Below are positions 13,057-61,015 of a stretch of 64,000 nt of DNA, piece after piece (position 1 is the stretch's first letter; each line of letters opens with the position of its first letter). The stretch is taken from assembly GCF_026151205.1 (NCBI RefSeq), contig NC_087073.1, positions 2,066,501-2,130,500 of the forward strand. Reading direction: 5' to 3'. Source of the DNA: Bolinopsis microptera. Its lineage: Eukaryota; Ctenophora; Tentaculata; Lobata; Bolinopsidae. The translations under genes were made by a program, and so were the position numbers. The notes under the pieces are model-generated. The model was not told the DNA's origin and searched no databases. It saw only the letters and a list, made by a program, of their open reading frames with translations.

Positions 13057-13112
13057 GTTTAAAAAATCCAAAATTACAAACCTTAAACAAGTTGCTAATT
13101 GCAAATCGATTG

Positions 13113-13498
13113 TATCACGACGTGACCCCTTCGTCGTTTCACTATAGTATAGAGTTTCTACAGTTATTCACCATGGATTTGTTTGTTATTAAATAGTTTT
13201 TCATAAATTTTTGGATTTAGATTAATTCGATGTAATGGATCCAAGTTACTGCGGACATAGTTTACTATGTGTTTACCGTGTTTGGGTGCCCATCGCCCCA
13301 TCATATTTTACAGATGGGGGCGATATTTTGAACGATTCTATTTTATATTCATCTATTGCTGTAGTCTGTAAAATTTGAAAAGTATTTAATAAAAAAACGA
13401 TACAGGGGGAGCCGCGCACTCGTGCGCGGTGGGTCATACAATGTACAACGTAAAAACTTTCACCATAGTGAAACGACCGTGGGGGTCACGACGTAATA
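13113..13498. mobile_element. MITE with ~36-bp terminal inverted repeats
   Basis: TATCACGACGTGACCCC at the left reappears inverted as GGGGTCACGACGTAATA at the right; the arms continue to TCGTTTCACTAT. The interior (13160-13400) is homologous to 55297-55545 in the opposite orientation, where these arms are not seen. A tetranucleotide GATGGGGGCGATAT core is shared. Confidence 0.65.
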
Positions 13499-29985: not shown

Positions 29986-31437
29986 ATGGCAGGCTTAAAG
30001 GAAAAACAATCAGAAAGCAAAAAGATTGCGATTGGAAGCCTGCTAAACCTTGCAGATGAACCCAGCAAGAAAGTATTGTGTTCTTACAGTGCCACTGCTA
30101 CCTACAAAACAAACTTAGAGAATATGAAAGCCCACAATGCCCCTGTTCTCGAAGCCTGTGCCCAACTATTAGGTTTTAAAGTACGTGAAGCTGAAAAGAA
30201 GCTGTACAAGAACCAGGAGATTCTGTGTGACCGAATGATACTCAAGATCGAGTCCCTGTTCGACACCAATTGTGATGCCTGCTCAACTGTATACCACAAC
30301 GATATGACAGTCCAACCGCTCTTAAGATGTCGGCTTTGTATGCAGGGTTCGCACAATTGTGAAAAGATGAAAGAAAAAGCGACCGCTTTTAAAGAACTAA
30401 TCGAGAAGGGATTCTTCCCGCCTGAAGGATTGTGGCTCTGTTATGAGTGCGACCGTAAAAACGACCTGTCCCTACAGCCCCCCCAAAAGCCCCCCAAGGC
30501 AAGAAGCTCTCAAAGCTCGTCTGAAGGTATTCTGGATCCTATCAAAGAACATGACGAGGAAGGAGAAGAACATATCACTTCAGAAGAGGATAGAGAGAGC
30601 CCTAGAAGGAATAGAGACGACAACTTGAACGAAGAACAGACTAACACTGTGAGTGTGGTCTGCAGAGAATATGTCATGAGAAGATGCCACCATGGCCTCA
30701 CTGGAAAACGCCTGATAAATGGCAAAGGATGCCCATATCTGCATCCCAAAAGGTGCCGATATTACTCAGATTTTGGGGACGACAAACAAAGAGGCTGCAA
30801 GAAAGGGGAAAATTGCAACTTCTTTCACCCAAAACTGTGCAGAAACTCAGTGGCTACCCGAACTTGTTTCCATAAAGAGTGCGGCTTCCATCACTTGAAA
30901 GGAACTGCTAGAAAGACTGTTGGAGCCACAAATGCAGGAATAGATAGGTCCCAGCCCCTGCAACAACAGCAACATCAGCCGCAACAACAAAGAGGTCTAA
31001 GAAGACCAGACTTTAACCAAGCCCGAGGACAATGGCCACCTCTAAGCTCCATTGAACCCGACAAAATGGGCAGCCTAAACTCAGTAAACACAGTATACCC
31101 GCCAACTGTGGATAACTGGAAACAGGCTAGAACACGCAAGGATAGTTACTCTGAAAGAGAAAGAGACGGTGCTTTTTTAGAGAAACTTCTGGAAAACCTC
31201 AAGAACGGAATTATATCCGAAATGGACTCAAAGCTCATGAAGCTTCGGGACGAAATCCCGACATTAATACAAGAAACCCAGTCAAGATCACGCCAACCAT
31301 CCTCCCAAAGCCAACTCCAAGCCCCTCCACCTCAAGGACAAGTCCGACCCCCATTCCCGATGACTGCACCAATGCAGCCATTTCAACTACCGCATCAAAT
31401 GGGCCTTCATCCCAATTATGCAGGATCTTGCTACTAA
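29986..31437 (+). CDS. LINE ORF1: PHD-like and CCCH zinc-finger nucleic-acid-binding protein
   Basis: A 483-residue protein thought to package the retrotransposon RNA. A C4HC3 PHD-like cluster is visible at C96/C99, C115/C118, H123/C125 and C152/C155. Three CCCH-like fingers follow (C226-C234-C249-H253; C257-C271-C277-H281; C285-C294-C299-H302/303), a type that binds RNA. An acidic/serine linker (170-215) separates the two regions. The C-terminal third is Gln/Pro-rich (QQQQHQPQQQ near 325) with an amphipathic segment around 395-430. The ATG at 29986 is the first in frame. The stop overlaps the ORF2 frame. Confidence 0.85.
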   Translation: MAGLKEKQSESKKIAIGSLLNLADEPSKKVLCSYSATATYKTNLENMKAHNAPVLEACAQLLGFKVREAEKKLYKNQEILCDRMILKIESLFDTNCDACSTVYHNDMTVQPLLRCRLCMQGSHNCEKMKEKATAFKELIEKGFFPPEGLWLCYECDRKNDLSLQPPQKPPKARSSQSSSEGILDPIKEHDEEGEEHITSEEDRESPRRNRDDNLNEEQTNTVSVVCREYVMRRCHHGLTGKRLINGKGCPYLHPKRCRYYSDFGDDKQRGCKKGENCNFFHPKLCRNSVATRTCFHKECGFHHLKGTARKTVGATNAGIDRSQPLQQQQHQPQQQRGLRRPDFNQARGQWPPLSSIEPDKMGSLNSVNTVYPPTVDNWKQARTRKDSYSERERDGAFLEKLLENLKNGIISEMDSKLMKLRDEIPTLIQETQSRSRQPSSQSQLQAPPPQGQVRPPFPMTAPMQPFQLPHQMGLHPNYAGSCY

Positions 31438-34400
31438 ATGCCAGATCAATCTCACCTGCCGCCACTAGTACTGTCAAGTGGAAAATACCCGTCATCAGAG
31501 ATCATATGCTCCACGACAAAGAATCCCCCACCACCCCATTTCTTGCTATCACGGAGTCGTGGCTAAAACCATATATTAGTGATGCACAGATCAAGATAGA
31601 GGGATACAACTCTGTAAGGACTGATCGCCCTTTTCGAAAGGGTGGTGGATGTGTGCTCTACATTGAGGAGTCACTATTATTTTCAGACTGTTTTAGTTAT
31701 AGTGACAAACACTGCAGCATGCTTTACTGTTTCATAGACTCAATGAATACATTAGCTGTAGTTATTTACCGCCCACCGGACGCTCCAACAGAATCTTTCA
31801 AAGGAATTCTGGACCTAGTTCAAAAGAAACTAGACGCCCTCACCTCCGATAACAGAACACCGGACCTCTACATAATGGGAGACTTTAATCTCCCCAATAT
31901 AGACTGGGAGTATTCAAATGTCCTCGCCGGCCAAACCCAATCGGATCAAAGAGCCTGCTCAGGCCTACTCGACTTCATGAACAAGAACTTTCTCAGTCAA
32001 ATGATTCATGAACCTACTAGAGATAGCAACATTATTGATTTGATACTCACCAACAAGCCCCAAGACGTAATCGAGACGAACGTGTGTGTGACCCAGCTGT
32101 CTGATCATAGACTTGTTGAGCTTTTACTAGGTCACAACCCTCTCAGCCCCAAGCAAACCTCAACTGAAGTTGTAGATAAAGACTCTTTTCGAGCAGTAAA
32201 TTATCACAACGCTGACTTTGAAGCTATGAATGAACTTCTAACAACAATAGATTGGAAGGAACTTAAAAGACTCTGTGAAGACGATGAGAATGGGAGTAAT
32301 TTCTTGGAACTCATCCGTTTGACTGTGCTCCAGGTCACTCTCCTCAATTCCCCGTACAATAATAAGCCAGGTGCTTCCCCAGTGCACAGAAACCAGCATT
32401 GTCGTAAAAAGTATACGCTTAAAAGGAAAAAGAGGAAGATCAACGCCCGCATGAATGCCATTACTCAAAGAAACCCTACGTCCCCCGTCCTTGCAAAGCT
32501 TAGAAATGAAGTGGACCTCTTGGCATTTGAAATAAGTGAGCTGATCATCAACGAGCTCAACGAACGCGAGGCTAAAGCTGTCACTACCATAAAGACAAAT
32601 CCACGTTACTTCTACAGCTACGCAAAGAAGTTTGCGAAAGTCAAATCTTCTGTCTCCCCCATCAGAGATAGAGAAGGTCGACTGCACACTGACCCCAAGG
32701 AAAAGGCCGAGCTCCTCCAGGCCCAATATGTGAAAGTATTTAGTGACCCAAATGAAGCCCACATCGAGGAAAGCCTTGCTGGATTGAACCCTGTGCCAGT
32801 TAAGGAACTCGATCAAATGCAATTCTCAGTTAACGATATCTCAGAAGCCATCAAGGAACTGGACCCGTATTCATCGACCCCTGATGGTGATATCCCTGCT
32901 AGGATCCTGACCAAATGTAGAGAGACATTGTCCGAGCCCATATTTCTACTCTGGCAAGATTCTTTTGAAACTGGAGTAATCCCTCCTAGCATGAAAACGC
33001 AGTTTATTACCCCTGTCTACAAGAAGGGTGACCGCACAGAGGCTGCCAACTACCGCCCTGTTTCTATAACATCGCATATCATCAAGATCTTCGAAAGAGT
33101 GATACGAAACAACCTTGTCGAACATATGGAAGTGAATAACTTTCTTTCACCGCATCAACATGGATTTCGCAAAAAGAGGAGCTGCCTAACTCAACTCTTA
33201 GACCATGTAGATACCATATTGAAAAGCCTGAACAGTGGCGAAGAAGTAGATGTCATATACCTCGATTACGCCAAGGCGTTCGATAAGGTGGATCACAACA
33301 TACTACTACTTGCAAAAGCAAAACGTTACGGAATTCATGGAAACATGCTCCAGTGGTTAAGCGAATTCCTAAAAAACCGTCTCCAGACAGTGGTCGTTGA
33401 AGGAACTAAGTCATCCTTCCAGCTGGTGATAAGTGGAGTGCCACAAGGTACAGTGTTGGGACCGATTCTGTTCATTCTCTACATCGATGACCAATTGGAC
33501 GCACTGCTTACCTCTCTTGGAAAGATATTTGCTGATGACACTAAACTCATCGGTAAAATATTGGACTTGGCCACCAAAGCATCGCTACAAGAAGACCTCT
33601 TCAATGTCATTGCCTGGGCTCGAAGAAACAATATGCAGCTCAATGAAGCCAAATTTGAGATCCTCAATTATACGCTCAATAATTCTCTTCTGCTGCGAAA
33701 TCTGCCATTTACAAATGATCTGCTCAGTTACACTCTTACAACAGGTCAAATAATTGAGCCAGCAGAAACTGTCAGGGACTTGGGGGTGATTTTATCAAAC
33801 GACTGCTCTTGGACTCCCCACATCCAGAAAATGATCCAATCAGCAAGCACTATGTCATCCTGGGTTCTTAGCGTCTTCAAAGATAGATCACAATTTCTCA
33901 TGCTTACCCTCTTCAAAACCATGGTGCGGAGTAAGCTAGAATATTGCTGCCCTGTCTGGAATCCAGCCAAGACCATGGACATAGAGGCTATAGAAAACGT
34001 TCAACGACAATTTACCCGACGCATTAACGGATGCAGTGGTTTAGACTACTGGGAACGTCTCACGAAACTCAATATCATATCATTGCAGAGACGTCGAGAA
34101 AGGTACATCTTGATCCACACATGGAAAATTCTCAATGGCCTGGCCCCAAATGATATTGGCATGCTGTTCAAAAACAACCCCCGACATGGAATAAAAGCTA
34201 CTGTACCAGCACTGAACAACAAATCACAGCGTTCTGTGGCAACTCACTATGAAAACTCGTTTGGAGTGAAAGCGGCACAGCTGTGGAATCTTCTCCCCAA
34301 AGAAATTAATTCCATCTCTACTTTGGACCTGTTAAAATCGTCACTGGCTAAATTCCTTAAAGAATTCCCCGACACACCTCCGACTAAAGGATACACCGCT

Positions 34401-34472
34401 ACTAACAACAACTCACTCTTGGAATGGTACTTACAAAAAGACCCCTGTGGAGTGATAGGAGGACGTACTTGA
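31428..34472 (+). CDS. LINE ORF2: AP-endonuclease and reverse transcriptase
   Basis: About 1014 residues. The endonuclease (1-230) shows LLLNARSI, ITESWL (Glu about 43), YRPPD, GDFNLP (151-156) and SDH (225-227). The reverse transcriptase (about 480-760) shows VYKKGDR, NYRPVSI, HGFRKKRSC, YLDYAKAFDKVDH, GVPQGTVLGP and FADDTKL (catalytic Asp pair near 703-704). Target-primed reverse transcription is the expected role. There is no ATG at the start: the frame opens before 31428 inside ORF1, and the first in-frame ATG (about 31506) would remove the first endonuclease motif. ORF2 lies in the -1 frame relative to ORF1, so frameshifting or re-initiation is likely. All key residues are present. Confidence 0.88.
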   Translation: MLLNARSISPAATSTVKWKIPVIRDHMLHDKESPTTPFLAITESWLKPYISDAQIKIEGYNSVRTDRPFRKGGGCVLYIEESLLFSDCFSYSDKHCSMLYCFIDSMNTLAVVIYRPPDAPTESFKGILDLVQKKLDALTSDNRTPDLYIMGDFNLPNIDWEYSNVLAGQTQSDQRACSGLLDFMNKNFLSQMIHEPTRDSNIIDLILTNKPQDVIETNVCVTQLSDHRLVELLLGHNPLSPKQTSTEVVDKDSFRAVNYHNADFEAMNELLTTIDWKELKRLCEDDENGSNFLELIRLTVLQVTLLNSPYNNKPGASPVHRNQHCRKKYTLKRKKRKINARMNAITQRNPTSPVLAKLRNEVDLLAFEISELIINELNEREAKAVTTIKTNPRYFYSYAKKFAKVKSSVSPIRDREGRLHTDPKEKAELLQAQYVKVFSDPNEAHIEESLAGLNPVPVKELDQMQFSVNDISEAIKELDPYSSTPDGDIPARILTKCRETLSEPIFLLWQDSFETGVIPPSMKTQFITPVYKKGDRTEAANYRPVSITSHIIKIFERVIRNNLVEHMEVNNFLSPHQHGFRKKRSCLTQLLDHVDTILKSLNSGEEVDVIYLDYAKAFDKVDHNILLLAKAKRYGIHGNMLQWLSEFLKNRLQTVVVEGTKSSFQLVISGVPQGTVLGPILFILYIDDQLDALLTSLGKIFADDTKLIGKILDLATKASLQEDLFNVIAWARRNNMQLNEAKFEILNYTLNNSLLLRNLPFTNDLLSYTLTTGQIIEPAETVRDLGVILSNDCSWTPHIQKMIQSASTMSSWVLSVFKDRSQFLMLTLFKTMVRSKLEYCCPVWNPAKTMDIEAIENVQRQFTRRINGCSGLDYWERLTKLNIISLQRRRERYILIHTWKILNGLAPNDIGMLFKNNPRHGIKATVPALNNKSQRSVATHYENSFGVKAAQLWNLLPKEINSISTLDLLKSSLAKFLKEFPDTPPTKGYTATNNNSLLEWYLQKDPCGVIGGRT

Positions 34473-35205: not shown

Positions 35206-38200
35206 GTAAGACTATGTTTGTAGCTGTTGTTATAGTTTTATTTTGTGTGTTTTGGACTTATAGACTGCTGCCAAAGTTGTATTTTTTGAGCTGCTTGCTT
35301 GTATCTAAAAAGTACGGTCGTTGGTATTGTACCAGACGAGTTAGTATTATACCAGACGTGAGTCTCTCAGTTTCTGCAGAACTCGAACAAGTCATTAGTC
35401 GAAGGTTTTAACACTTCGTAAGTTGGGCACTTTTTAAAATGCTTTGCACGTGAGTCCACCTCGTACACCAAATGGGAATTCAAAGTTGGAAGTTTTTTTA
35501 ATGGATGGGCAAGGAGAAGTTTCTAAAGTTGGAAGTTTTTCCAGCACCTCTAGCTGCATTCCAGTGAAGACCATCTCAGGAATGGTGACCTCACACTGAT
35601 GAGTATTTATTTACCAGCTCCATGTTCATGCCAGGCACCAGCATTACCACACAATCCCCCATAATTCTAGACATATCCTTTTGCCTTCTGTCTGACCGGG
35701 CCCGATCTAAGGAGCTGATAAGACTGATAAGGGCTCCTTCTATAACAACTTGCAATTAGATGAAGGTGTCAAACAAGACACCTTCCATTGGTATATCCTC
35801 CAAAAACCCTCCGATTAGCTCATTATTTGCGGGACTGTGAAGGAACAGGCTCTTTGAAGTGGCCCGGCTGTTATGAGGAGCTATTAGTCGCGCTACCATC
35901 TCACAGGGTCACAGGGTGTACCATGAGCAATGTGAGCCTCATCAATGTGAGCTGTTAACCTCGTCTAGATAAGCAAATCGATCGATAACAATCTAAATTC
36001 TTTAATTTCAAGTTTTTCCTGCATGTAATTCTAAGAAGCAGACTTTAAGATGGATTAGGATATTGAACTGTTATCATTTCTTCTATTTCTCTCTATTTTC
36101 CTCCGTAAACCACCGCTATTGATACGATTTCCCGCTTTTATACCTCTATATGAGGGCGCAAACCTGGTCAAGTTTCTCAATTCCCAAGTGAATAATTGAG
36201 CAGCACCTGCCCAGATACCAACACACCAGTCCCTTTTGTTTCTCAAGAAGTTGGTCGGAACCAGTGGTCCATGAAATTAATTACTGAGTAATGTCCAGTC
36301 GTGATTCTTTTGCCGACTGTATCAATCCATTGGTTTTATCGTTAATATGACCCAGGCCTTATCGATATGAGATATCTTATCTGATTATCATAGGGACGGG
36401 TGCATCCCACCCAGTTCAAGCCTTGTGTCGATATCTTATCTGATTATTATGGGGCCTGCCGGTGGGTGCATATATAAAACGTGAGCAATGCAGTCATGGT
36501 AACTGTTGTCATGGAAATGCATACTTTATCAATGTTCCAACTTTTACCGGTGAATCTGTTAAAATCCGTTAAAATGAATCTGTTGAAATCATAAGCTGTT
36601 ATCTAAATCAAATTATCGAGAGGTTTCCGTCTAACTTTGTAACGGTACATTAATTACATACTTATTCACACTTCTTTAAGAGCAGTAGTAGACTAGTAAC
36701 CTGTTATACTGGTCCAGTAATCAGTATAACTGGTTACTAGTGATAAAACCATTCCCCCAGGTACGAACATTGAACGTTAATAAAATGAGCAACATTAAGT
36801 GGACTGTTACAAGATTTGAAATAACCAATAGAACTTCTAGAATAGAACATCTAGGAAACTCTAGAGTCTAGACATCCCAACCTAGTCACCTAAGATTGAA
36901 AATAACATCACCACATGATTGCTGAACCCATAGTCCCTACATCAGGGGGGATCAGACATTTCACATGAAACTTTGTGAAATGTCTGAGAGGATCAAATAT
37001 CCTACACTATCCTACACCCAGCTTCAGGGCTCACATTATACAGCCCTCTTCAGAGCTGCTTCATGTGGCAGGTTACCTGGTTACCTGGTTACCTGGTTAC
37101 CTGGTTACCTGGTTACCTGGTTACCTGGTTACCTGGTTACCTGGTTACCTGGTTACCTGGTTACCTGGTTACCTGGTTACCTGGTTACCTGGTTACCTGG
37201 TTACCTGGTTACCTGGTTACCTGGTTACCTGGTTACCTGGTTACCTGGTTACCTGGTTACCTGGTTACCTGGTTACCTGGTTACCTGGTTACCTGGTTAC
37301 CTGGTTACCTGGTTACCTGGTTACCTGGTTACCTGGTTACCTGGTTACCTGGTTACCTGGTTACCTGGTTACCTGGTTACCTGGTTACCTGGTTACCTGG
37401 TTACCTGGTTACCTGGTTACCTGGTTACCTGCTTCATGTGGCAGGTTACCTCACTAGATCCTATAACAGTTCCAACCCGGCCTGGTGATAATAACTCTGA
37501 GATCGATCGAACCTCTTTACTGTCTCGTAACGGTCTACTGCAGCGGTGGTCACATTTCCATGTGTTACTTATACTGAGAATTATTGTGGCTATTAGCTTA
37601 CGTTCCATATCTGAAGAGAATAGCTCATTTGTACAATGTGTAGTGTAATTCTCCAACCGATCTGTCTCCAGCTGAAGCTTCTTTTTTTGCAGTTTTTGAG
37701 CTATTTTTATCTGCAAGTGGTAAACACAGCTGTGTTTTGTTTTTGTGCCATTTTTCTCGCGCTCTTGTTTCAGCACTCAGTTTAAAGATGACTCTCACAC
37801 ATTGTGTTCTAAATTACGCATCACCAACCGTCGAACTTAATTCTTCTCTGGCACATTTCACTCTGTAAAGACTGCATTTTGGTGTAAACCACCTCGTTAA
37901 TTAATTAGTTAGTTAGACATCTTATAAAGCTAGTAAAAGTTCCAAATATTGGCCTCACTGTATACCCTGCCCTCATAACATGTATAATATTACAACTCAT
38001 GTTGCTCTCATGTGTGGTTATGGAATCCGGTCTAAAAATCGAGTTATAATGGAGGGTATAATCCACTTATAGTTGGTGTGGAGTGTTGACAATGAAACTG
38101 TATCAGCCCTGAAGACTCAACCCCTCCACCACTCACTATTCTTCAGTCTTTACACTTTCTGCTAGCACGTTTAATGTAGTGTCTATAATGTTATCTGATC

Positions 38201-45909: not shown

Positions 45910-47181
45910 TCACACCTCAACAGTAGACTCAGTGTTCTTGCTCATAATAGAGAACTTCTTGTGTCCACCTCTCTTCGAGAACATTCTCACAAACTCAGCC
46001 CTCATAGCTGGAGTAGTCAGGAAGTAAGTTGCAGGAGAGAAACTAATTGCCGCCAACATCGCCACGTACATCAGATCCAGGGCCAGGTACTGTGAGATGG
46101 GCTTTTTGAGGTAGAGCTCCGGAGCGAAGATCTGAGGGATCCAGGTGAGGGTGGTGAGTGTGTTCAGAACCAGGATCATTAGTATGGACCAGGGGATTGC
46201 GTCTTGTCCTATCGCCTTTAGCTGTGACAGTTTCTCTCCGAGTGTGACTGGTTTGTAATCGTAATCCACCTTCCCACACTTCATCGACCCTTTGCATTTT
46301 CCCAGAGACTTTTCCTTCTTCTTGTGGTTTATGAGGAGGTTGACGATGAGCCCGTACACAATAAGTACCCCAGCAAATGGTAAAATGAATCCTACTGAGA
46401 CAAGGATCCACCTGAATGCGGTACACTTGCATCCCTCTGTCTGCAGATGACACAATCCCCCATTAGAGAGATTATCATGTTCAATCCACACATTAGAACA
46501 CAGACCCAGTAAAGGTAGACATGTCACCAGGGTGATGAGACACACCAACACCACAATCCCTGTCACCTGCACTCTGAGATTCAGGAGCTTCTTGTACTTG
46601 GTCGGGTAGGCTACACACAGCCACCTCGCTATTGAAACCAGGAGTATACCATACCCGGGCAGGATCACAGCTACATACTCCACAGTGTTCACAGCATCAC
46701 AGTAACCCTCCAGTGGAACTATAGCCTGCAGTACTGCCGAGGTTGTCAGGACAACGAACAGGAATAGTTGGCTCGCTGAGTAGAAGATCAGAGACAGATA
46801 CAACCTTATCAAGTGTCTGAAGTGTCTTAATATTAAGTAAAGCAGGATGGCTGTTGTTACCAAGAGAATTGCACAGAAGGGCCCGTACATTATCTTGGAT
46901 AGTTCCATACCATTCTTGATACTCGGTGGAACAACAAATGAGTCGGTATCATTAGTTTCGGTACCCATTGTACCCTCACTGAAAGGGGTCGTCACGGCTG
47001 ATGTTCTGATCATATCCGGAGTTGACTCCTGCATGCCGACGGATGCTCCCTCCACTTTGAGGTCGCCTTCTGGCTCCGTGGTGAGTCTGGTGGTGAAGGA
47101 GGAGGTTGAGTTGTACCATGAGGACGAAGTGGTCCAGTACTGCGTGGTGGGGAAATCGAACTTCAGGGTGTTTTCGTTCAT
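45910..47181 (-). CDS. Rhodopsin-like (class A) G-protein-coupled receptor
   Basis: Intronless 423-residue ORF. A long Ser/Thr-rich, N-glycosylatable N-terminus (1-92; NSS/NST-type sites near 24 and 77) precedes seven hydrophobic segments at about 96-118, 124-150, 163-188, 205-227, 257-284, 329-350 and 364-390. Cys161 sits at the top of TM3; Cys228/244/251/253 lie around extracellular loop 2. The DRY motif is ARW (185-187), the TM6 CWxP is TWIP (346-349), and NPxxY is SPATY (382-386). A Lys-rich third intracellular loop (286-325) and a C-tail with Ser/Thr follow. Ligand unknown. The family is plausible, but the diverged motifs leave room for a lineage-specific receptor. The first in-frame ATG is used. 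Confidence 0.82.
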   Translation of the reverse strand: MNENTLKFDFPTTQYWTTSSSWYNSTSSFTTRLTTEPEGDLKVEGASVGMQESTPDMIRTSAVTTPFSEGTMGTETNDTDSFVVPPSIKNGMELSKIMYGPFCAILLVTTAILLYLILRHFRHLIRLYLSLIFYSASQLFLFVVLTTSAVLQAIVPLEGYCDAVNTVEYVAVILPGYGILLVSIARWLCVAYPTKYKKLLNLRVQVTGIVVLVCLITLVTCLPLLGLCSNVWIEHDNLSNGGLCHLQTEGCKCTAFRWILVSVGFILPFAGVLIVYGLIVNLLINHKKKEKSLGKCKGSMKCGKVDYDYKPVTLGEKLSQLKAIGQDAIPWSILMILVLNTLTTLTWIPQIFAPELYLKKPISQYLALDLMYVAMLAAISFSPATYFLTTPAMRAEFVRMFSKRGGHKKFSIMSKNTESTVEV

Positions 47182-49193: not shown

Positions 49194-52100
49194 AGTACGT
49201 TACACCATGACAATGATAGTAGAGACTAGAGATTGAGGTACACAATGAAAATGTCAGTAGAGAGTGCGGTACACCATGAAAATGTCAGTTGAGAGTGCGG
49301 TACACCATGAAAATGTCAGTAGAGAGTGCGGTACACCATGAAAATGTCAGTAGAGAGTGCGGTACAACATGAAAATGTCAGTAGAGAGTGCGGTACACCA
49401 TGAAAATGTCAGTAGAGAGTGCGGTACAACATGAAAATGTCAGTAGAGAGTGCGGTACACCATGAAAATGTCAGTAGAGAGTGCGGTACAACATGAAAAT
49501 GTCAGTAGAGAGTGCGGTACAACATGAAAATGTCAGTAGAGAGTGCGGTACACCATGAAAATTTCAGTAGAGAGTGCGGTACACCATGAAAATGTCAGTA
49601 GAGAGTGCGGTACAACATGAAAATGTCAGTAGAGAGTGCGGTACACCATGAAAATGTCAGTAGAGAGTGCGGTACACCATGAAAATGTCAGTAGAGAGTG
49701 CGGTACAACATGAAAATGTCAGTAGAGAGTGCGGTACACAATGAAAATGTCAGTAGAGAGTGCTGTACACCATGAAAATGTCAGTTGAGAGTGCGGTACA
49801 CCATGACAAATGACAATGTCAGTAGAGAGTGCGGTACACCATGAAAATGTCAGTAGAGAGTGCGGTACACCATGACAAATGACAATGTCAGTAGAGAGTG
49901 CGGTACAACATGAAAATGTCAGTAGAGAGTGCGGTACACCATGAAAATGTCAGTAGAGAGTGCGGTACAACATGAAAATGTCAGTAGAGAGTGCGGTACA
50001 CCATGACAAATGACAATGTCAGTAGAGAGTGCTGTACACCATGAAAATGTCAGTTGAGAGTGCGGTACACCATGACAAATGAAAATGTCAGTTGAGAGTG
50101 CGGTACAACATGAAAATGTCAGTAGAGAGTGCGGTACACAATGAAAATGTCAGTAGAGAGTGCGGTACACAATGAAAATGTCAGTAGAGAGTGCGGTACA
50201 CAATGAAAATGTCAGTAGAGAGTGCGGTACACCATGAAAATGTCAGTAGAGAGTGCGGTACACAATGAAAATGTCAGTAGAGAGTGCGGTACACCATGAA
50301 AATGTCAGTAGAGAGTGCGGTACACAATGAAAATGTCAGTAGAGAGTGCGGTACACCATGAAAATGTCAGTAGAGAGTGCGGTACAACATGAAAATGTCA
50401 GTAGAGAGTGCGGTACACCATGAAAATGTCAGTAGAGAGTGCGGTACACAATGAAAATGTCAGTAGAGAGTGCGGTACACCATGAAAATGTCAGTAGAGA
50501 GTGCGGTACACAATGAAAATGTCAGTAGAGAGTGCGGTACACCATGAAAATGTCAGTAGAGAGTGCGGTACACAATGAAAATGTCAGTAGAGAGTGCGGT
50601 ACACAATGAAAATGTCAGTAGAGAGTGCGGTACACCATGAAAATGTCAGTAGAGAGTGCGGTACACCATGAAAATGTCAGTAGAGAGTGCGGTACACCAT
50701 GAAAATGTCAGTTGAGAGTGCGGTACAACATGAAAATGTCAGTAGAGAGTGCGGTACACCATGAAAATGTCAGTAGAGAGTGCGGTACACCATGAAAATG
50801 TCAGTAGAGAGTGCGGTACAACATGAAAATGTCAGTAGAAAGTGCGGTACACCATGAAAATGTCAGTAGAGAGTGCGATACAACATGAAAATGTCAGTAG
50901 AGAGTGCTGTACACCATGAAAATGTCAGTAGAGAGTGCGGTACACCATGAAAATGTCAGTAGAGAGTGCGGTACATCATGAAAATGTCAGTAGAGAGTGC
51001 GGTACAACATGAAAATGTCAGTAGAGAGTGCGGTACACCATGAAAATGTCAGTAGAGAGTGCGGTACACCATGAAAATGTCAGTAGAGAGTGCGGTACAC
51101 CATGAAAATGTCAGTAGAGAGTGCGGTACATCATGAAAATGTCAGTAGAGAGTGTGGTACAACATGACAATGTCAGTAGAGAGTGCTGTACAACATGAAA
51201 ATGTCAGTAGAGAGTGCGGTACACCATGAAAATGTCAGTAGAGAGTGCGGTACAACATGAAAATGTCAGTTGAGAGTGCGGTACACCATGAAAATGTCAG
51301 TAGAGAGTGTGGTACAACATGAAAATGTCAGTAGAGAGTGCGGTACACCATGAAAATGTCAGTAGAGAGTGCGGTACACCATGAAAATGTCAGTAGAGAG
51401 TGCGGTACAACATGAAAATGTCAGTTGAGAGTGCTGTACAACATGAAAATGTCAGTAGAGAGTGCGGTACAACATGAAAATGTCAGTAGAGAGTGCGGTA
51501 CACCATGAAAATGTCAGTTGAGAGTGCGGTACAACATGAAAATGTCAGTTGAGAGTGCGGTACACCATGAAAATGTCAGTTGAGAGTGTGGTACAACATG
51601 AAAATGTCAGTAGAGAGTGCGGTACACCATGAAAATGTCAGTAGAGAGTGCGGTACACCATGAAAATGTCAGTAGAGAGTGCGGTACAACATGAAAATGT
51701 CAGTAGAGAGTGCTGTACAACATGAAAATGTCAGTAGAGAGTGCGGTACAACATGAAAATGCCAGTAGAGAGTGCGATACAACATGAAAATGCCAGTAGA
51801 GAGTGCGGTACAACATGAAAATGTCAGTTGAGAGTGCGGTACAACATGAAAATGTCAGTAGAGAGTGCGGTACAACATGAAAATGTCAGTAGAGAGTGCT
51901 GTACAACATGAAAATGTCAGTAGAGAGTGCGGTACAACATGAAAATGCCAGTAGAGAGTGCGATACAACATGAAAATGCCAGTAGAGAGTGCGGTACAAC
52001 ATGAAAATGTCAGTTGAGAGTGCGGTACAACATGAAAATGTCAGTAGAGAGTGCTGTACAACATGAAAATGTCAGTTGAGAGTGCGGTACAACATGAAAA

Positions 52101-55064
52101 TGCCAGTAGAGAGTGCGATACAACATGAAAATGCCAGTAGAGAGTGCGGTACAACATGAAAATGTCAGTTGAGAGTGCGGTACAACATGAAAATGTCAGT
52201 AGAGAGTGCGGTACACCATGAAAATGTCAGTAGAGAGTGCGGTACAACATGAAAATGTCAGTAGAGAGTGCGATACAACATGAAAATGTCAGTAGAGAGT
52301 GCGGTACAACATGAAAATGTCAGTAGAGAGTGCGGTACAACATGAAAATGCCAGTAGAGAGTGCGATACAACATGAAAATGCCAGTAGAGAGTGCGGTAC
52401 ACCATGAAAATGTCAGTAGAGAGTGCGGTACACAATGAAAATGTCAGTAGAGAGTGCGGTACACAATGAAAATGTCAGTAGAGAGTGCGATACAACATGA
52501 AAATGTCAGTAGAGAGTGCGGTACAACATGAAAATGTCAGTAGAGAGTGCGGTACACCATGAAAATGTCAGTTGAGAGTGCGGTACAACATGAAAATGCC
52601 AGTAGAGAGTGCGATACAACATGAAAATGCCAGTAGAGAGTGCGGTACACCATGAAAATGTCAGTAGAGAGTGCGGTACACAATGAAAATGTCAGTAGAG
52701 AGTGCGGTACACCATGAAAATGTCAGTAGAGAGTGCGGTACAACATGAAAATGTCAGTAGAGAGTGCGGTACACCATGGAAATGTCAGTTGAGAGTGCGG
52801 TACAACATGAAAATGTCAGTTGAGAGTGCTGTACAACATGAAAATGTCAGTAGAGAGTGTGGTACACCATGACAATGTCAGTTGAGAGTGCTGTACAACA
52901 TGAAAATGTCAGTAGAGACTAGAGAGTATAGAGTGCGGTACAACATGAAAATGTCAGTAGAGAGTGCGGTACAACATGACAATGTCAGTTGAGAGTGCTG
53001 TACAACATGAAAATGTCAGTAGAGACTAGAGAGTATAGAGTGCGGTACAACATGAAAATGTCAGTTGAGAGTGCTGTACACAATGAAAATGTCAGTAGAG
53101 AGTGCGATACAACATGAAAATGTCAGTTGAGAGTGCGGTACAACATGAAAATGTCAGTAGAGAGTGCGATACAACATGAAAATGCCAGTAGAGAGTGCGG
53201 TACACCATGAAAATGTCAGTAGAGAGTGCGGTACACAATGAAAATGTCAGTAGAGAGTGCGGTACACCATGAAAATGTCAGTAGAGAGTGCGGTACAACA
53301 TGAAAATGTCAGTAGAGAGTGCGGTACACCATGGAAATGTCAGTTGAGAGTGCGGTACAACATGAAAATGTCAGTTGAGAGTGCTGTACAACATGAAAAT
53401 GTCAGTAGAGACTAGAGAGTATAGAGTGCGGTACAACATGAAAATGTCAGTAGAGAGTGCGGTACAACATGACAATGTCAGTTGAGAGTGCTGTACAACA
53501 TGAAAATGTCAGTAGAGACTAGAGAGTATAGAGTGCGGTACAACATGACAATGTCAGTTGAGAGTGCTGTACACAATGAAAATGTCAGTAGAGAGTGCGA
53601 TACAACATGAAAATGTCAGTAGAGAGTGCGATACAACATGAAAATGTCAGTAGAGAGTGCGATACAACATGAAAATGCCAGTAGAGAGTGCGGTACAACA
53701 TGAAAATGTCAGTAGAGAGTGCGGTACACCATGAAAATGTCAGTAGAGAGTGCGGTACACCATGAAAATGTCAGTAGAGAGTGCGGTACACCATGAAAAT
53801 GTCAGTAGAGAGTGCGGTACACCATGAAAATGTCAGTAGAGAGTGCGGTACAACATGAAAATGTCAGTAGAGAGTGCGGTACACCATGAAAATGTCAGTA
53901 GAGAGTGCGGTACAACATGAAAATGTCAGTAGAGAGTGCGGTACAACATGAAAATGCCAGTAGAGAGTGCGATACAACATGAAAATGCCAGTAGAGAGTG
54001 CGGTACACCATGAAAATGTCAGTAGAGAGTGCTGTACAACATGAAAATGTCAGCAAAGAGTGCGGTACAACATGACAATGATAGTAGAGACTAGAGAGTG
54101 CGGTACAACATGAAAATGTCAGTAGAGAGTGCGGTACACAATGAAAATGTCAGTAGAGAGTGCGGTACAACATGAAAATGTCAGCAAAGAGTGCGGTACA
54201 ACATGACAATGTCAGTAGAGAGTGCGGTACACCATGAAAATGTCAGTAGAGAGTGCGGTACACCATGAAAATGTCAGTAGAGAGTGCGGTACAACATGAA
54301 AATGTCAGTTGAGAGTGCGGTACAACATGAAAATGCCAGTAGAGAGTGCGATACAACATGAAAATGCCAGTAGAGAGTGCGGTACACCATGAAAATGCCA
54401 GTAGAGAGTGCGATACAACATGAAAATGCCAGTAGAGAGTGCGATACAACATGAAAATGTCAGTAGAGAGTGCGGTACACCATGAAAATGCCAGTAGAGA
54501 GTGCGATACAACATGAAAATGCCAGTAGAGAGTGCTGTACAACATGAAAATGTCAGCAAAGAGTGCGGTACAACATGACAATGATAGTAGAGACTAGAGA
54601 GTGCGGTACAACATGAAAATGTCAGTAGAGAGTGCGGTACACCATGAAAATGTCAGTAGAGAGTGCGGTACACAATGAAAATGTCAGTAGAGAGTGCGGT
54701 ACACAATGAAAATGTCAGTAGAGAGTGCGGTACACAATGAAAATGTCAGTAGAGAGTGCGGTACAACATGAAAATGTCAGCAAAGAGTGCGGTACAACAT
54801 GACAATGATAGTAGAGACTAGAGAGTGCGTTACAACATGACAATATTAGTAGAGACTAGAGACTAGAGTGTGCGGTACAACAAGACAATATTAGTAGAGT
54901 CTAGAGAGTGCGGTACACCATGAAAATGTCAGTAGAGAGTGCGGTACACCATGAAAATGTCAGCAAAGAGTGCGGTACAACATGACAATGATAGTAGAGA
55001 CTAGAGAGTGCGTTACAACATGACAATATTAGTAGAGACTAGAGAGTGCGGTACAACATGACTT
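49194..55064 (+). repeat. 31-bp minisatellite, about 190 units with higher-order structure
   Basis: The unit contains GAGAGTGCGGTACACCATGA followed by AAATGTCAGTA. Common variants are CAACATG, CACAATG, GCGATAC, GCTGTAC, GCCAGT and GTTGAG. Rare variants recur at long spacing: CACCATGGAAAT at 52774 and 53329, 555 bp apart, with the surrounding units also matching. A six-unit (186-bp) block is duplicated near 51740-52080. Both ends carry the same longer divergent unit with GACAATGATAGTAGAGACTA. The period is not a multiple of three; no gene is encoded. Confidence 0.97.
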
Positions 55065-55296: not shown

Positions 55297-55545
55297 AAGT
55301 CACATACATTTTTTTATTAAATACTTTTCAAATTTTACAGAGTACAGCAATAGATGAATATAAAATAGAATCGTTCAAAATATCGCCCCCATCTGTAAAA
55401 TATGATGGGCACCCAAACACGGTAAACACATAGTGAACTATGTCCGCAGTAACTTGGACCCATTACATCGAATTAATCTAAATCCAAAAATTTATGAAAA
55501 ACTATTTAATAACAAACAAATCCATGGTGAATAACTGTGGATATA
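55297..55545 (-). mobile_element. Copy of the 13160-13400 element interior
   Basis: Reverse complement matches the interior of the MITE at 13113-13498 (blocks around CAGTTATTCACCATGG, ACCGTGTTTGGGTGCCCATC and GGGGGCGATATTTTGAACGA). The ACGACGTGACCCC arms are not present here, so either the arms belong to a second, outer element or this copy lost them. Confidence 0.65.
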
Positions 55546-55726
55546 GAGTCAAAATTGGTATTTCAATACGTCAAATTCCAGATACATTAGATACAGGTCT
55601 GAAATGGTCATTAATGTGTGAGAAGGTGTGCGGGTGAAGTGTGATATGATGTTGAAAGTATAGGAAGGTAGATAAAAAAATTAATAAAACAAAAATAATA
55701 ATAATATGGGGAGCAAAGAGACTAGG

Positions 55727-58700
55727 CTAGACTGTTGTTTCACTATCCAATAAAGATTTCCATAGATGCTTAGTGACCTCAGCTTTGAAAAGACTAGTAG
55801 ACACAATCTGTCTTACCTGTAAAGGGAGTCCATTCCACAGTATATGGGTTCTGTAGAAAAATGATTTTGCCAGTGGGCTATTTGAGGTACATGTGGTGTG
55901 TGAATTCTGACTTAACTTAGGTAAAATTGATGACACAATAGACAGACTGTCGAGGTGGCAACGTCTTAGTCGAGAAGTGCCCTGATATAAAGAGAGATAG
56001 TGAGGCAGCGATACAGGAATTAAATTGTTAAGAACTTTGTGGAAAAAAATAAGATCATTCAAGTCAAACTTTTGAGACAAAGGGAGAATGTCGACAAGCT
56101 TGCACTTTTTGACATATTGCTCAGGTGGATAACTGCGGCCCTCTTCAGACAGAATCCATTTAATAGCTCTCTTTTGGAGACTTTCTAATTTATCACTAAG
56201 TGATTTATTACAAGGGCGCCAGATTATGGAACAATTTTCGAATTGGCTACGAACCAGGGAGAGGTAAAGCGCCCGGCGACGTTTCTGATCGATGACAATA
56301 TGGCCATCTCTTCTGACCATACCAAGTTGTTGGCAGGCCTTAGTATAAATTCTGTCGCACTGACTATTCCAACTTAGCTTAGGAGTAACATCGACTCCAA
56401 GATCTTTTTCTAACTCTACATACACAAGAGGAGAGCCATCAAGATTATATGCGAATGGAGGAGATAAAGATGGTTTTCCTGAAACAATAAGCACTTTACA
56501 TTTTGCTGGATGGAATCGCATTTTGTTTCTTAGTGCCCAGTCAGAGAGATAGTCTATATCCATTTGTAAATTAGTATTATCGGAAGATGAATGTATTTTA
56601 CGCCAGATTTTTGTATCATCGGCATACAAAACAATATCAGTATTATCCGAAAGGCCAAGAGGAATATCATTGATAAACAATACAAAAAGTAAGGGACCAA
56701 GAATAGAGCCCTGGGGGACACCAGAATTAACTGAGAGGGTAGATGACATCTCATTACCAATAACCACTCTTTGGTAACGGCCTTGAAGGTAATTGGTAAG
56801 AAATTTGAGAAGTGTACCATCAATGTTATATAAGGTCTTTAGCTTATGAAGAAGGATATCATGATTTACAGAATCAAATGCCTTAGCAAAATCAAAATAC
56901 ACAACATGATTGATAATGTTTTCGTTAAGAGACAATGCCAGGCTATCACAAAAGTCAACCATATTGGTTGTGCATGACTTGTGCTCTAGAAAACCATGCT
57001 GCCTGGGATCAAGAAGGGTACTTGTCAAAGAAAGCAGTTTACGTTTAACAATGCGCTCAAAAACTTTCATGACTAAACAAGTAAGGGATATTGGTCTATA
57101 GTTTTCAACCTCACTTTTCTTACCTTTCTTAAATATTGGGACAACATTTGCAAGTTTCCATTCTTGTGGAATGTAGCCGCTGTTGTAAGATCCACGAAAA
57201 ATGCATGTTAGAGGGTAAGCTAAACCTACGGAACAATTTTTGAGAATTTTACCGTGTATGCCATCTGGTCCCTGGGCTTTATTTGAATTAATATTTGAAA
57301 GAAGCTTACGAACATCCCGATGATCGAAGTCAATATCAAAATCAACATCATTGACATAGGAGATGTCAGTGTCATAAAGTGAAGGATCCGAAAACTGGTT
57401 ATAAAAGAAAGAATTGAAAAGTTCAGCTTGAGCTTTGGGTTTGAACCGAAGCTGTCCAGAATAACTAACACAATTAGGAATACGGCAGGAGTTAGATTTA
57501 TACTTAACATGTGACCAAAACTTCTTAGTTATAAGCGCTGGATCATCACTATTGAAAAGATTGTCTCTTATTTTGGCTGATGAAAGCCTCTTAAAATCTT
57601 TACGGCTAGTAACAAACTTTAACTCATCAGAAATAGAACCAGAAATTTTAAATTTAGCTCTGAGTCTATCTTTTTTACGGCATGAAGAGAAAAGTTCACT
57701 ATCGAACCACGGGGGTTGAAACTCTGATTTAATAGTTACTTTAGGAATATGTATATCAACTAAATTCATAATGCAGTCTTTAACTAACTTCCAAGACGAA
57801 TCAGGATCTAGGCATTCTAGGACTTGCCAATTAATCGAGCATAATTCACGATTAATCATGTCCCAGTTTGCTTTCTTATAATTATAGATTTTACGTTTAG
57901 GAGTTTTCTTGCGGGAAAAGGAGCTTTTAATTGAAAAAGTGACAGGAAAATGATCAGATTTGCACACGGAATGAGGATCACAGACATTCAAGTTATCGAT
58001 TGTGTTATCATAATTACTGAGAAGAATGTCTAATGTATTACCACTTTTATGGGTGGGTGATGTGATCAACTGGGAGAGAGAAAGATCACTGAAAGAATCT
58101 ATGAAGGATTGCTCAATAGGTACGGTACTGGATGAAGATAGCCAGTCTGTATGGGGGAGATTAAAATCACCAATAACATAGATTTTAGGGGGATTCTTTT
58201 TGGAAACTAGCTTGCGAATATAACTAACTATTACATCATGATTAGGTAACCCAAGAGTTCCTACTCTATAACAAGTACAGATTACAATACTCTCTTTGTT
58301 AGGAAAAACAATTTTAACGGCAAGCATTTCTGCACCTAGGCTAACTGGTAGTCGGGTTGTAGTGGCATCGAGATCAGACCGAACAGCCAAAAGAACACCA
58401 CCTCCATTTTCCCTAAACTTTTTAGGGTTATTAGGATCTTGAGGATGAGTCTTTCTCGTGCGGTCATTGCGGAAGATTTCATATTGAGAAGAAGGAAAGA
58501 TTTCGTTGCTAGAAACAGATTTTTTGAGCCAAGTCTCATTTAGGGCAATTATGTCAGGCTGCTCTATGTTAGCAAAGGATTGAAGTTCGGAAATCTTATT
58601 ACCATCAAGAAGGGGATGGAGGGAGCTTAGGTTACTGAAAGGAATAAGACCTTGGACATTTTGGTAGAGTACAGATAGGGAGTTGGGACCTGGATTAAGC

Positions 58701-59242
58701 ATAGAAGGATTAACAAGAGTTATCAAAAGAAAGTTAAGAGAGAAAACCCAAAGAATGAATAAAGATACTAGACGCCTGAGGCGGCTGGAATACTTGACTC
58801 TATTCATCTTACCAGGGAGAAGAACATTTCTTATAAACCATGAGGAGATAATTACAAAGAAAAGTTTGATGTGGGAGCAAGCAAGAAATGGTATAAGATA
58901 ACGTGGGCTGTCAAGGAGTAGAGAGGAATGAATATTAGAATCTAGGGGGAATACGGTGTTCATGGACCTAGTCGTGGAGAGAAGAATTGGGAGAAGGTAA
59001 GTCATGATGAGAGAATAGAAGAGAAACATATGATTATGATAATTGTAGTTGATGTGTGGGGTGCATGGAGAATTAAATGTGTAAATTTTGTTAGGTATAA
59101 ACGTGTTCATATGTATATGTGCATTTCTTGACTGTGTACGAGGCCTTTTGCATGCAAAAAGACCTATTCTAAGTCTAAACGATTCATTGTCTAACATATG
59201 GGAAAATGGGCAGTGACCGAATGTACCTGAAATAGGAGGCAT
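55727..59242 (-). CDS. LINE ORF2: hydrophobic leader, NPGP motif, AP-endonuclease, reverse transcriptase
   Basis: 1171 residues, intact. Residues 1-180 are an unusual extension with three hydrophobic stretches (about 72-90, 114-143, 158-177), ending in MLNPGP (181-186), which resembles a 2A peptide (DxExNPGP) but lacks its Asp and Glu. The endonuclease spans about 188-435: YQNVQG, LNETWL (Glu236), GDFNLP (359-364), SDH (429-431). The reverse transcriptase is at about 650-930: VPIFKKGKK, NYRPISL, HGFLEHKSC, YFDFAKAFDSVNH (Asp784), SGVPQGSILGP and YADDTKIW (Asp875/876). No RNase H. All catalytic motifs are present. The family is CR1/L2-like by architecture. The true start may be a later Met (94 or 146), as the first part of the extension is low-complexity. 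Confidence 0.88.
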   Translation of the reverse strand: MPPISGTFGHCPFSHMLDNESFRLRIGLFACKRPRTQSRNAHIHMNTFIPNKIYTFNSPCTPHINYNYHNHMFLFYSLIMTYLLPILLSTTRSMNTVFPLDSNIHSSLLLDSPRYLIPFLACSHIKLFFVIISSWFIRNVLLPGKMNRVKYSSRLRRLVSLFILWVFSLNFLLITLVNPSMLNPGPNSLSVLYQNVQGLIPFSNLSSLHPLLDGNKISELQSFANIEQPDIIALNETWLKKSVSSNEIFPSSQYEIFRNDRTRKTHPQDPNNPKKFRENGGGVLLAVRSDLDATTTRLPVSLGAEMLAVKIVFPNKESIVICTCYRVGTLGLPNHDVIVSYIRKLVSKKNPPKIYVIGDFNLPHTDWLSSSSTVPIEQSFIDSFSDLSLSQLITSPTHKSGNTLDILLSNYDNTIDNLNVCDPHSVCKSDHFPVTFSIKSSFSRKKTPKRKIYNYKKANWDMINRELCSINWQVLECLDPDSSWKLVKDCIMNLVDIHIPKVTIKSEFQPPWFDSELFSSCRKKDRLRAKFKISGSISDELKFVTSRKDFKRLSSAKIRDNLFNSDDPALITKKFWSHVKYKSNSCRIPNCVSYSGQLRFKPKAQAELFNSFFYNQFSDPSLYDTDISYVNDVDFDIDFDHRDVRKLLSNINSNKAQGPDGIHGKILKNCSVGLAYPLTCIFRGSYNSGYIPQEWKLANVVPIFKKGKKSEVENYRPISLTCLVMKVFERIVKRKLLSLTSTLLDPRQHGFLEHKSCTTNMVDFCDSLALSLNENIINHVVYFDFAKAFDSVNHDILLHKLKTLYNIDGTLLKFLTNYLQGRYQRVVIGNEMSSTLSVNSGVPQGSILGPLLFVLFINDIPLGLSDNTDIVLYADDTKIWRKIHSSSDNTNLQMDIDYLSDWALRNKMRFHPAKCKVLIVSGKPSLSPPFAYNLDGSPLVYVELEKDLGVDVTPKLSWNSQCDRIYTKACQQLGMVRRDGHIVIDQKRRRALYLSLVRSQFENCSIIWRPCNKSLSDKLESLQKRAIKWILSEEGRSYPPEQYVKKCKLVDILPLSQKFDLNDLIFFHKVLNNLIPVSLPHYLSLYQGTSRLRRCHLDSLSIVSSILPKLSQNSHTTCTSNSPLAKSFFYRTHILWNGLPLQVRQIVSTSLFKAEVTKHLWKSLLDSETTV

Positions 59243-59339
59243 AAAATTGAGAAAAAGATTAAATCAGAGATTTGTTTGAGTTTAAATTTTAGGCGCAACG
59301 TCTTAATCAAAATATTAAATGAAAGAAAAGATCAAAGAT

Positions 59340-60722
59340 TTAAATTCCCAGAAGATTATTTACAACCCTGTCAAAACTGTGTTCGTTTACAACAAACTTA
59401 AGCCAAGTGGACAGTAAACCTACTCCTCTCATGTTGAGATGAAGCCAATCATGGTATAGAAGTTCATTACAGGATCTAAAGTCTCGAGTTAAAAAGTCTG
59501 AGAAACAGTCTAAGAACACGCAATTATTATTTAGGCATAAGTCTTTAAGTAGATTATTAAAATCTAGAACATTCTTTGCTATGTAGGAATATAAACACTT
59601 AATAGGAAGACAACATTGGATAATTATAATTGCAGCGGGAAATAACTGCTTAGTGGTGTCAATCAAGTCATTAAGATACTTCCTAAGGAACTGAACCCCA
59701 TACTTAGAATGTTTTATGTCATTTGTACCAACACTCAATATAATCTTTTCAATATCGTCAGCTTCTGCAGCTGCATGAGTTTTATGAAAATGCTGAATAT
59801 TTTCAGTGATATCTCTAATTTTTGCACCACTTTGGGACACATTGATTACTTTCCTTCCCCGGAATCCCAACTTATTTGTCCGTACGAATTTTGTCATTGA
59901 CGTACCAAACAGGACAGTGGTTTTCCTGCTCTTCGGTTTTCTTGGAGCATTTCGGTAGTAAAGGGTTGGTGTTGAGGTGGTGGTGGGCGGCATAGGAATT
60001 GTAGTGAGGACATTCTGCTCCCTGACTACATTTGTATCTGTCTTCGGTATCTGGCAGCGAAAAGATAAGCTATACCGAGTCTCCTTAGCTGATCTCTCTG
60101 CACGAACCTTGTGAAGACAATATTCCTGACACCCCGGTTTCATAATATACAAACTACAGTCCTTTGGGGTGATATGGCATTTACTGTTACATCGCTTATC
60201 CCCATTTTCTGGAATTATGTCTAGGGTCCTCTCAGCTCCAAATGAAACTACATAAATACCTTGCGACTGGTCAAGAGACACCTCGTCGTCGTTGTGGTAC
60301 CTAGTTGCACAAGAACCAGACTTGTACATGCTTGCTAGGCATGAGTTTAGCTTGCAGCCAAACTTGGAGTTGATATCATGCATAAGCTCTGATATCCCAG
60401 GATAATTTAAAATATCGATTGGCTCCTTAGTCGTGGTGTGTCCATTTGAGGAAGACCATACATATTCTTCTCCAGTGGAAGTGAGCCACTTTGTGGCAGT
60501 TTTCACAGCAGTTTGCTTGGCCATAAGTGTTTCAAGTTCAGACATCAACGTGCCATGTTGAACACTCTTGTTTTGAACAAAATCTGAATGCAACTCCAAG
60601 AAGTCCTCGCATTTAACAGAATCCCTCTTCAGTTTCATGACATTCTCAACACTGGCCTTAAGAGCTTTCAGCTCTTTTAATGAAAACGAGTTTAAAACAT
60701 TGGTAACAGAATTCAGATCCAT
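59340..60722 (-). CDS. LINE ORF1: AlkB-like 2OG-Fe(II) dioxygenase fused to SGNH esterase
   Basis: 460 residues, intact, 97 nt before ORF2. Residues 1-80 are helical and Leu/Lys-rich. Residues about 100-225 match the AlkB fold: RYHNDDE gives the metal ligands His143 and Asp145; IYVVSFGAERTLDI is the core strand; LYIMKPGCQEYCLHKVRAER gives the second metal His204; TRYSLSFR gives Arg216 and Arg222 for 2-oxoglutarate and substrate, as in the AlkB R-x5-R. Residues about 268-442 match SGNH hydrolases: FGTSM (nucleophile Ser275), SQSG (Gly299), GTND (332-335) and DWLH (Asp425, His428). A Pro/Thr linker (243-262) joins them. SGNH esterases are known in CR1-like ORF1; the AlkB part would act on alkylated or methylated RNA/DNA. 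Both assignments come from motifs only. Confidence 0.8.
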   Translation of the reverse strand: MDLNSVTNVLNSFSLKELKALKASVENVMKLKRDSVKCEDFLELHSDFVQNKSVQHGTLMSELETLMAKQTAVKTATKWLTSTGEEYVWSSSNGHTTTKEPIDILNYPGISELMHDINSKFGCKLNSCLASMYKSGSCATRYHNDDEVSLDQSQGIYVVSFGAERTLDIIPENGDKRCNSKCHITPKDCSLYIMKPGCQEYCLHKVRAERSAKETRYSLSFRCQIPKTDTNVVREQNVLTTIPMPPTTTSTPTLYYRNAPRKPKSRKTTVLFGTSMTKFVRTNKLGFRGRKVINVSQSGAKIRDITENIQHFHKTHAAAEADDIEKIILSVGTNDIKHSKYGVQFLRKYLNDLIDTTKQLFPAAIIIIQCCLPIKCLYSYIAKNVLDFNNLLKDLCLNNNCVFLDCFSDFLTRDFRSCNELLYHDWLHLNMRGVGLLSTWLKFVVNEHSFDRVVNNLLGI

Positions 60723-60904
60723 AGTGAAGGAAAGAGGGAGGAGAAGATGGCGGTGAGGGAGGAGAAAATGGCGAAGTCAATACTGTAGCCCAGGAAGTAG
60801 AACTAGATGCGTTGCTTAGGATACAAACGGTCACGTCATAGTCTCTTCTATCGCTTTGACATTGGGACCTCAAATTATTTGTTATATAGTAGTGTTGAAA
60901 GTAT

Positions 60905-61015
60905 TAAAACTGATATAGTAGTGTTGAAAGTATTAAAACATAAATAGAGAGTGCGGTTCAAGACGACATTTTCGGAAGAGCCTACAGTACGATATTATAA
61001 CAATGCCAGCAAAGA
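60905..61015 (+). repeat. Direct duplication and possible remnant of the 31-bp minisatellite
   Basis: ATATAGTAGTGTTGAAAGTA occurs twice (starting about 60884 and 60913). It is followed by TAGAGAGTGCGGTTCAAGAC (from 60944), a near match to the 31-bp unit, and by CAATGCCAGCAAAGACTACA. The array seems to resume in degenerate form on the far side of the LINE. Confidence 0.45.

Follow-up and report, generated by a model that had tools for sequence, protein, structure and literature searches.

A LINE of the ctenophore Bolinopsis microptera whose ORF1 joins a predicted AlkB-type dioxygenase to a predicted SGNH esterase

Esterase-containing (Type IV) first open reading frames (ORF1s) of long interspersed nuclear elements (LINEs) are already known (PMC4120745). 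In ZfL2-1, an example of this ORF1 type from the L2/CR1/RTEX LINEs, the esterase has enzymatic activity and an affinity for anionic lipids, whereas it does not bind oligo(A) RNA (PMC3905857). AlkB dioxygenases are carried by plant RNA viruses of the Alphaflexi-, Betaflexi- and Closteroviridae, and by a Ty3/Gypsy long terminal repeat (LTR) element of the orchid Phalaenopsis (PMC9289625). Here we describe, in a 64,000-nucleotide window of the Bolinopsis microptera genome (NC_087073.1, positions 2,066,501 to 2,130,500), an autonomous LINE whose first protein, ORF1, combines an SGNH esterase with an AlkB domain that by sequence is closest to human ALKBH2 and ALKBH3.

The ORF1 in the window resembles that of ZfL2-1 in its position within a LINE, its related SGNH esterase and its helical N-terminus, but differs in an additional AlkB dioxygenase that follows the N-terminal helices and precedes the esterase; the term AlkB does not occur in two accounts of esterase-type ORF1s (PMC4120745, PMC3905857). 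Like the Phalaenopsis ORF, it is a retrotransposon-borne AlkB with intact cofactor residues, although the orchid protein is a separate ORF of an LTR element and an ALKBH5-like demethylase of N6-methyladenosine (m6A) (PMC9289625), whereas the domain described here is ALKBH2/3-like, fused to an esterase and part of a LINE. The plant viruses are likewise carriers that replicate RNA, and their polyproteins appear among the fold matches, but the viral AlkB sits inside long replicase-type proteins. ALKBH2 and ALKBH3 share with ORF1 the fold, the HxDxE motif, the distal His and the Arg motif; they are, however, stand-alone host repair enzymes. Finally, GDSL ORFs of bdelloid LTR and Athena elements also represent SGNH hydrolases captured by retroelements, in other element classes and in a source where the term AlkB does not occur (PMC5408684).

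A sequence-only reading of the window had placed an intact 460-residue ORF beside an endonuclease-reverse transcriptase (RT) ORF and had named its active-site residues. The coordinates were right, with the reading confined to the minus strand (the plus strand, frame 1, is full of stops there), and H143-x-D145, H204, R216-x5-R222, S275, G332-T-N-D335 and D425-x-x-H428 all lie where that reading had put them (Table 1). Both the HxD...H plus R-x5-R arrangement of the AlkB fold and the conserved Ser, Gly, Asn and His of a Type IV esterase domain are present. When the window ORF1 was searched alone against Pfam, the esterase passed the cut-off and the dioxygenase (PF03171, E 0.0044) fell below it; across 78 family members at E <= 0.001, 2OG-FeII_Oxy_2 was found in 61/78 and Lipase_GDSL_2 in 78/78. 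Single-sequence phmmer matched human ALKBH3 (E 2.5e-9) and the ZfL2-1 ORF1 esterase (4c1b, 9.8e-5), and a family profile strengthened these matches to 3.4e-19 and 2.9e-12, respectively.

Structure prediction gave the same two folds (pLDDT, the predicted local distance difference test score, 90.5). A fold search returned ALKBH3/ALKBH2 and SGNH esterases as top matches, with FTO and ALKBH5 ranked lower. The best matches in VIA were ALKBH2 on double-stranded DNA; 4c1b was not among the 50 VIA matches listed, which is no argument against the kinship seen by sequence profile. N-terminal helices were modelled at residues 3-11 and 15-34 (pLDDT 85-93 for the block of residues 1-30), and the linker between the domains carries a net charge of +5 in the window copy compared with a family median of +1. 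A relative only 29% identical (P0094) was modelled with the same two folds, from an alignment (A4) that also contained the window protein.

Conservation carries the argument further. A first protein search returned 101 relatives, down to 27% identity, and a profile search listed 108, adding seven to these; the resulting alignment holds 109 rows (the window protein and 108 relatives), of which 96 contain both AlkB and SGNH and are called two-domain here. Despite a mean pairwise difference of 59% in the AlkB regions, the full H143-D145-H204-R216-R222 set is retained in 94/96 two-domain sequences, the exceptions (P0071 and P0072) being one gap at 143/145 and one Leu at R216, and HxD is kept in 95/95 sequences with a residue there. 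Conservation of at least 97% was found at Y87, L129, H143, D145, E147, G162, R165, M194, G197, Q199, H204, R216, S220, F221 and R222. The catalytic Ser of the esterase is replaced in two of 96 (one Ala, and one Leu in P0089). Pairwise distances in the AlkB and SGNH parts are correlated (r 0.84, 96 sequences), which fits one fused unit inherited together. Such a pattern suggests that both putative active sites are under purifying selection. Profile, fold and conservation rule out a chance or misread AlkB motif.

Copies lacking AlkB had been singled out beforehand as evidence that would count against the fusion. The 13 remaining rows are pieces of 224-389 residues, five with AlkB but without full SGNH and eight (224-311 residues) with SGNH but without full AlkB; two of the eight, P0047 and P0224, show no AlkB whatever, and in two of the 13 a metal ligand is altered (Tyr at 204 in P0226, Arg at 143 in P0228). 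Relatives without AlkB are at least as frequent as this count suggests, since a fused query preferentially recovers fused proteins. Given both domains in 96/109 sequences, it is unlikely that AlkB was inserted only now and then in individual copies. Sequence, structure prediction and conservation all back the proposed reading of AlkB fused to an SGNH esterase as the ORF1 of a LINE. By eye, one relative of 706 residues (P0085; longest contig 59,550 nt) has two tandem AlkB domains before the esterase. Searches of viral contigs and one scan of bacterial and archaeal genomes found no relative, and phage records gave two distant AlkB matches only.

The predicted dioxygenase appears closest to ALKBH2/3. 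The family profile matched ALKBH2 at E 1.3e-16, second to ALKBH3, with ALKBH1 next at a mere 2.2; the 59 sequences matched up to E 10 do not include E. coli AlkB, ALKBH5 or FTO. Residues H143-D145-E147-H204-R216-R222 aligned to ALKBH2 H171-D173-E175-H236-R248-R254 in 3/3 alignment modes. H143, D145 and H204, the putative ligands of the metal site proposed from the sequence alone, align to the HxD...H residues of ALKBH3 as well. E147 is Glu in 94/95 sequences; in ALKBH2, Tyr122, Asp173 and Glu175 contact 1-methyladenosine (m1A) and 3-methylcytidine (m3C), and Phe124 stacks on the base (PMC10377887). The ALKBH3 counterpart of Glu175 is Glu195, and FTO also has an active-site Glu, Glu234 (PMC3985658). 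Aromatic residues occupy positions 79 (93/93), 87 (89/90) and 89 (89/90), and Y87/W89 fell on ALKBH2 Tyr122/Phe124 in 1/3 alignment modes, a tentative lid equivalence. Weighing against a simple copy of ALKBH2/3, Asn159 of ALKBH2, which together with Tyr161 we take to line the 2-oxoglutarate pocket, corresponds to Ser131 in the window ORF1 and to Ser or Thr in 76/96 family members (Asn in only 4/96). Tyr161 is retained as Y133, so that the Asn and Tyr pair is not conserved as such. This change lowers the case for strict ALKBH2/3 orthology, as judged from the alignment, and leaves the AlkB fold unaffected.

ORF1 and ORF2 lie on the same strand 97 nt apart, and both are intact. The listed start of ORF2 is probably too early: a start at 59197 is likelier because in 18 aligned ORF2s the consensus opens at the listed M16. 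In these 18 sequences E236, D359, N361, D430, H431, D784 and YADD 873-876, which we presume to be catalytic positions, are invariant. No RNase H was found in ORF2 by Pfam at E <= 1. Compared with the Protein Data Bank, the RT matched those of R2 (a non-LTR element) and L1 and bacterial/group II intron-type RTs. As in APE-type LINEs, an AP-like endonuclease accompanies the RT in ORF2, and one 3'-anchored, 5'-truncated copy (13157-13397) shares the 3' end of the element, both ending in an identical run of seven A. The 3' stem recurs in this second copy (z -3.12) and gave z -1.33 when folded with more flank; Rfam returned no match at gathering score. A search for target-site duplications yielded a single 10-mer common to the flanks, which may be a chance match. 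Short tandem duplications (21 and 29 nt units) lie just upstream of ORF1 at 60734-60773 and 60884-60947 and are perhaps part of the 5' UTR (untranslated region).

Table 1. Features of the AlkB-ORF1 LINE in the window, with the basis for each assignment.
Feature	Position	Strand	Basis
LINE with ORF1, ORF2 and 3' UTR	55309-60722	minus	ORF coordinates; 3' end shared with second copy
ORF1, 460 aa, AlkB-SGNH fusion	59340..60722	minus	Pfam, phmmer, predicted structure, 108 relatives
Two N-terminal helices, residues 3-34, which may serve in oligomerisation	60621..60716	minus	Predicted structure
AlkB-type 2-oxoglutarate/Fe(II) dioxygenase domain, residues 36-226	60045..60617	minus	
HxD metal motif, H143-N-D145	60288..60296	minus	Aligned to ALKBH3 and ALKBH2 HxD
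Distal metal ligand H204	60111..60113	minus	96/96 two-domain sequences
Arginine motif R216 to R222 (R-x5-R)	60057..60077	minus	R216 95/96, R222 96/96
Flexible linker, residues 227-266, basic in window copy	59925..60044	minus	pLDDT <50 at 234-258
SGNH/GDSL esterase domain, residues 267-448	59379..59924	minus	
Catalytic Ser275	59898..59900	minus	Ser in 94/96 two-domain sequences
GTND 332-335	59718..59729	minus	G332 95/96, N334 96/96
D425-x-x-H428	59439..59450	minus	H428 93/93, D425 76/93 with residues there
ORF2, endonuclease-RT, 1171 aa as listed	55727..59242	minus	Pfam RVT_1 1.2e-28, Exo_endo_phos_2 8.3e-13
3' UTR ending in AATAAAAAAA; element 3' end at 55309	55309..55726	minus	Independent copy stops at same A-run
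3' terminal stem-loop, possible RT recognition structure	55333..55400	minus	Fold z -2.59
5'-truncated copy of element's 3' end	13157..13397	plus	95% identical to 55309-55541

What might such an ORF1 do? We consider the chances about even that its ALKBH2/3-type domain removes m1A/m3C lesions from the element's own RNA within the particle. The N-terminal helices would mediate self-association of ORF1, the Fe(II)/2-oxoglutarate dioxygenase would bind nucleic acid and remove its methyl groups, the flexible linker, basic in the window copy, may add RNA contact, and the esterase would anchor the particle at membranes, a role already proposed for that of ZfL2-1. Inside this ribonucleoprotein the AlkB part would strip m1A/m3C from element RNA and perhaps also from new single-stranded cDNA, allowing target-primed reverse transcription to run further. 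The template of a LINE is its own RNA, so a demethylase carried in the ORF1 particle could relieve blocks by m1A and m3C, both of which interfere with commonly used RTs (PMC12140624). In OTTR, which employs the R2 RT, AlkB treatment removed m1A/m3C signatures and raised the capture of most 3' tRNA halves, a gain that its authors tied to m1A impeding the R2 RT, although intact tRNA responded only modestly and modified tRNAs were also captured in the absence of AlkB (PMC12140624). Of the functions suggested from the sequence alone, the closeness of the domain to ALKBH2/3 speaks most for one that acts on the element's own RNA or newly made DNA, by repair or demethylation. More tentatively, and at somewhat less than even weight, we envisage a diverse LINE lineage in which a template-cleaning demethylase would be obligate in the ORF1 particle, reverse transcription would resist methylation lesions, and the esterase would deliver the particle to membranes.

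It is less likely, though the best placed of the alternatives, that the AlkB domain erases regulatory marks, whether m6A in RNA of the element or its host or the methylation of integrated DNA, and so allows escape from silencing. The orchid demethylase is active on m6A in vitro (PMC9289625), Alkbh1 knockout increases N6-methyladenine on young mouse L1 (PMC4982230), ABH2 oxidises 5-methylcytosine with low efficiency (PMC10377887), and FTO and ALKBH5 do match the ORF1 fold, albeit at lower rank. The family profile, however, finds neither of these two up to E 10 and groups the domain with ALKBH2/3, whose HxDxE spacing its acidic residue shares (though FTO has an active-site Glu too), and ALKBH5 suppresses L1 (PMC7873242). 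The sequence-only reading had also raised the erasure of host methyl marks, for which we found no specific support.

Slightly less likely still is DNA repair, in which the domain would remove 3-methylcytosine (3mC), also that formed as a by-product of host DNA methyltransferases, or 1-methyladenine from newly made cDNA or from the site of integration. ALKB2 co-evolves with DNMT1/3, the makers of 3mC (PMC9246332), and the double-stranded DNA complexes of ALKBH2 head the VIA matches. The host's own ALKB2, however, would normally do the same job already. ORF1 proteins, moreover, act chiefly in the RNA particle. Nothing in the present evidence separates RNA from DNA substrates.

We regard as improbable that the AlkB fold serves as a non-catalytic nucleic-acid-binding module, taking the part that an RRM or zinc knuckle plays in other kinds of ORF1. 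Such a role would agree with the absence of an RRM or CCHC knuckle from ORF1 in Pfam at E <= 1, with the lack of defined RNA-binding domains in esterase ORF1s (PMC3905857) and with the replacement of Asn159 by Ser, but the metal-ligand and arginine positions are near-invariant while the rest diverges, unlike a binding-only scaffold.

The AlkB-ORF1 adjoining an RT is seen directly at one locus, in the window. Three longest-contig sizes (5975, 5531 and 6114 nt) are common to the 101 ORF1 matches and to the 120 listed of 4246 ORF2 matches (P 0.045 by jittering sizes), which hints weakly at further ORF1-ORF2 pairs; a fourth coincidence, at 3717 nt, is too short for both ORFs and indicates that chance matches occur. 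That ORF1 is an unrelated host gene merely adjoining ORF2 is very improbable: direct linkage at a single locus and the weakness of other linkage evidence would allow it, but the two intact ORFs are closely spaced on one strand, the family profile matches a LINE ORF1 esterase, and the large number and divergence of the relatives fit a mobile element.

Several other features lie in the window. A second LINE (29986-34472, plus) has an EN-RT (endonuclease-RT) ORF2 and an intact ORF1 of 483 residues that is Cys/His-rich and PHD-like by eye, with no Pfam match at E <= 0.01; its ORF2 and that of the AlkB LINE are only 27% identical. A third RT fragment (7846-8571, plus) is 36% identical to ORF2 over ~200 residues. 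At 13110-13501, inverted repeats of 20 and 23 nt flank the truncated LINE copy, resembling a small DNA transposon with a LINE 3' end. About 183 copies of a 31-bp unit (49227-55000) start ~300 nt beyond the 3' end of the AlkB LINE. An intact gene for a rhodopsin-family receptor of 423 residues (7tm_1, 7e-11) occupies 45910-47181 on the minus strand and by itself suggests an animal host, and long frames open in several readings at 27335-29083 and 36965-37648 consist of short tandem repeats and are probably not genes.

In searches of the open-access literature, no AlkB-esterase LINE ORF1 appeared among the matches listed, as judged by titles and abstract openings. The earlier description of the system as undescribed holds to that extent, although esterase ORF1s as such are known; what we call new is an esterase-ORF1 LINE that, from its sequence, appears to have gained a demethylase domain. 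Some relatives are annotated 'alkylated DNA repair dioxygenase AlkB' or '.../lysophospholipase L1-like esterase' without mention of a LINE, which suggests that some genes named 'AlkB' or 'lysophospholipase L1-like esterase' may be LINE ORF1s. The element provides a LINE parallel to the capture of AlkB by plant RNA viruses and the orchid LTR element, although the AlkB group it drew on seems to be another one. A testable claim follows, namely that m1A/m3C in element RNA limit retrotransposition and that the ORF1 enzyme lifts this limit. If the proposed function is true, this would be, to our knowledge, the first example of a LINE that edits the chemical marks of the template it copies. RNA/DNA demethylation could then be part of a LINE particle itself, which would connect RNA modification to reverse transcription.
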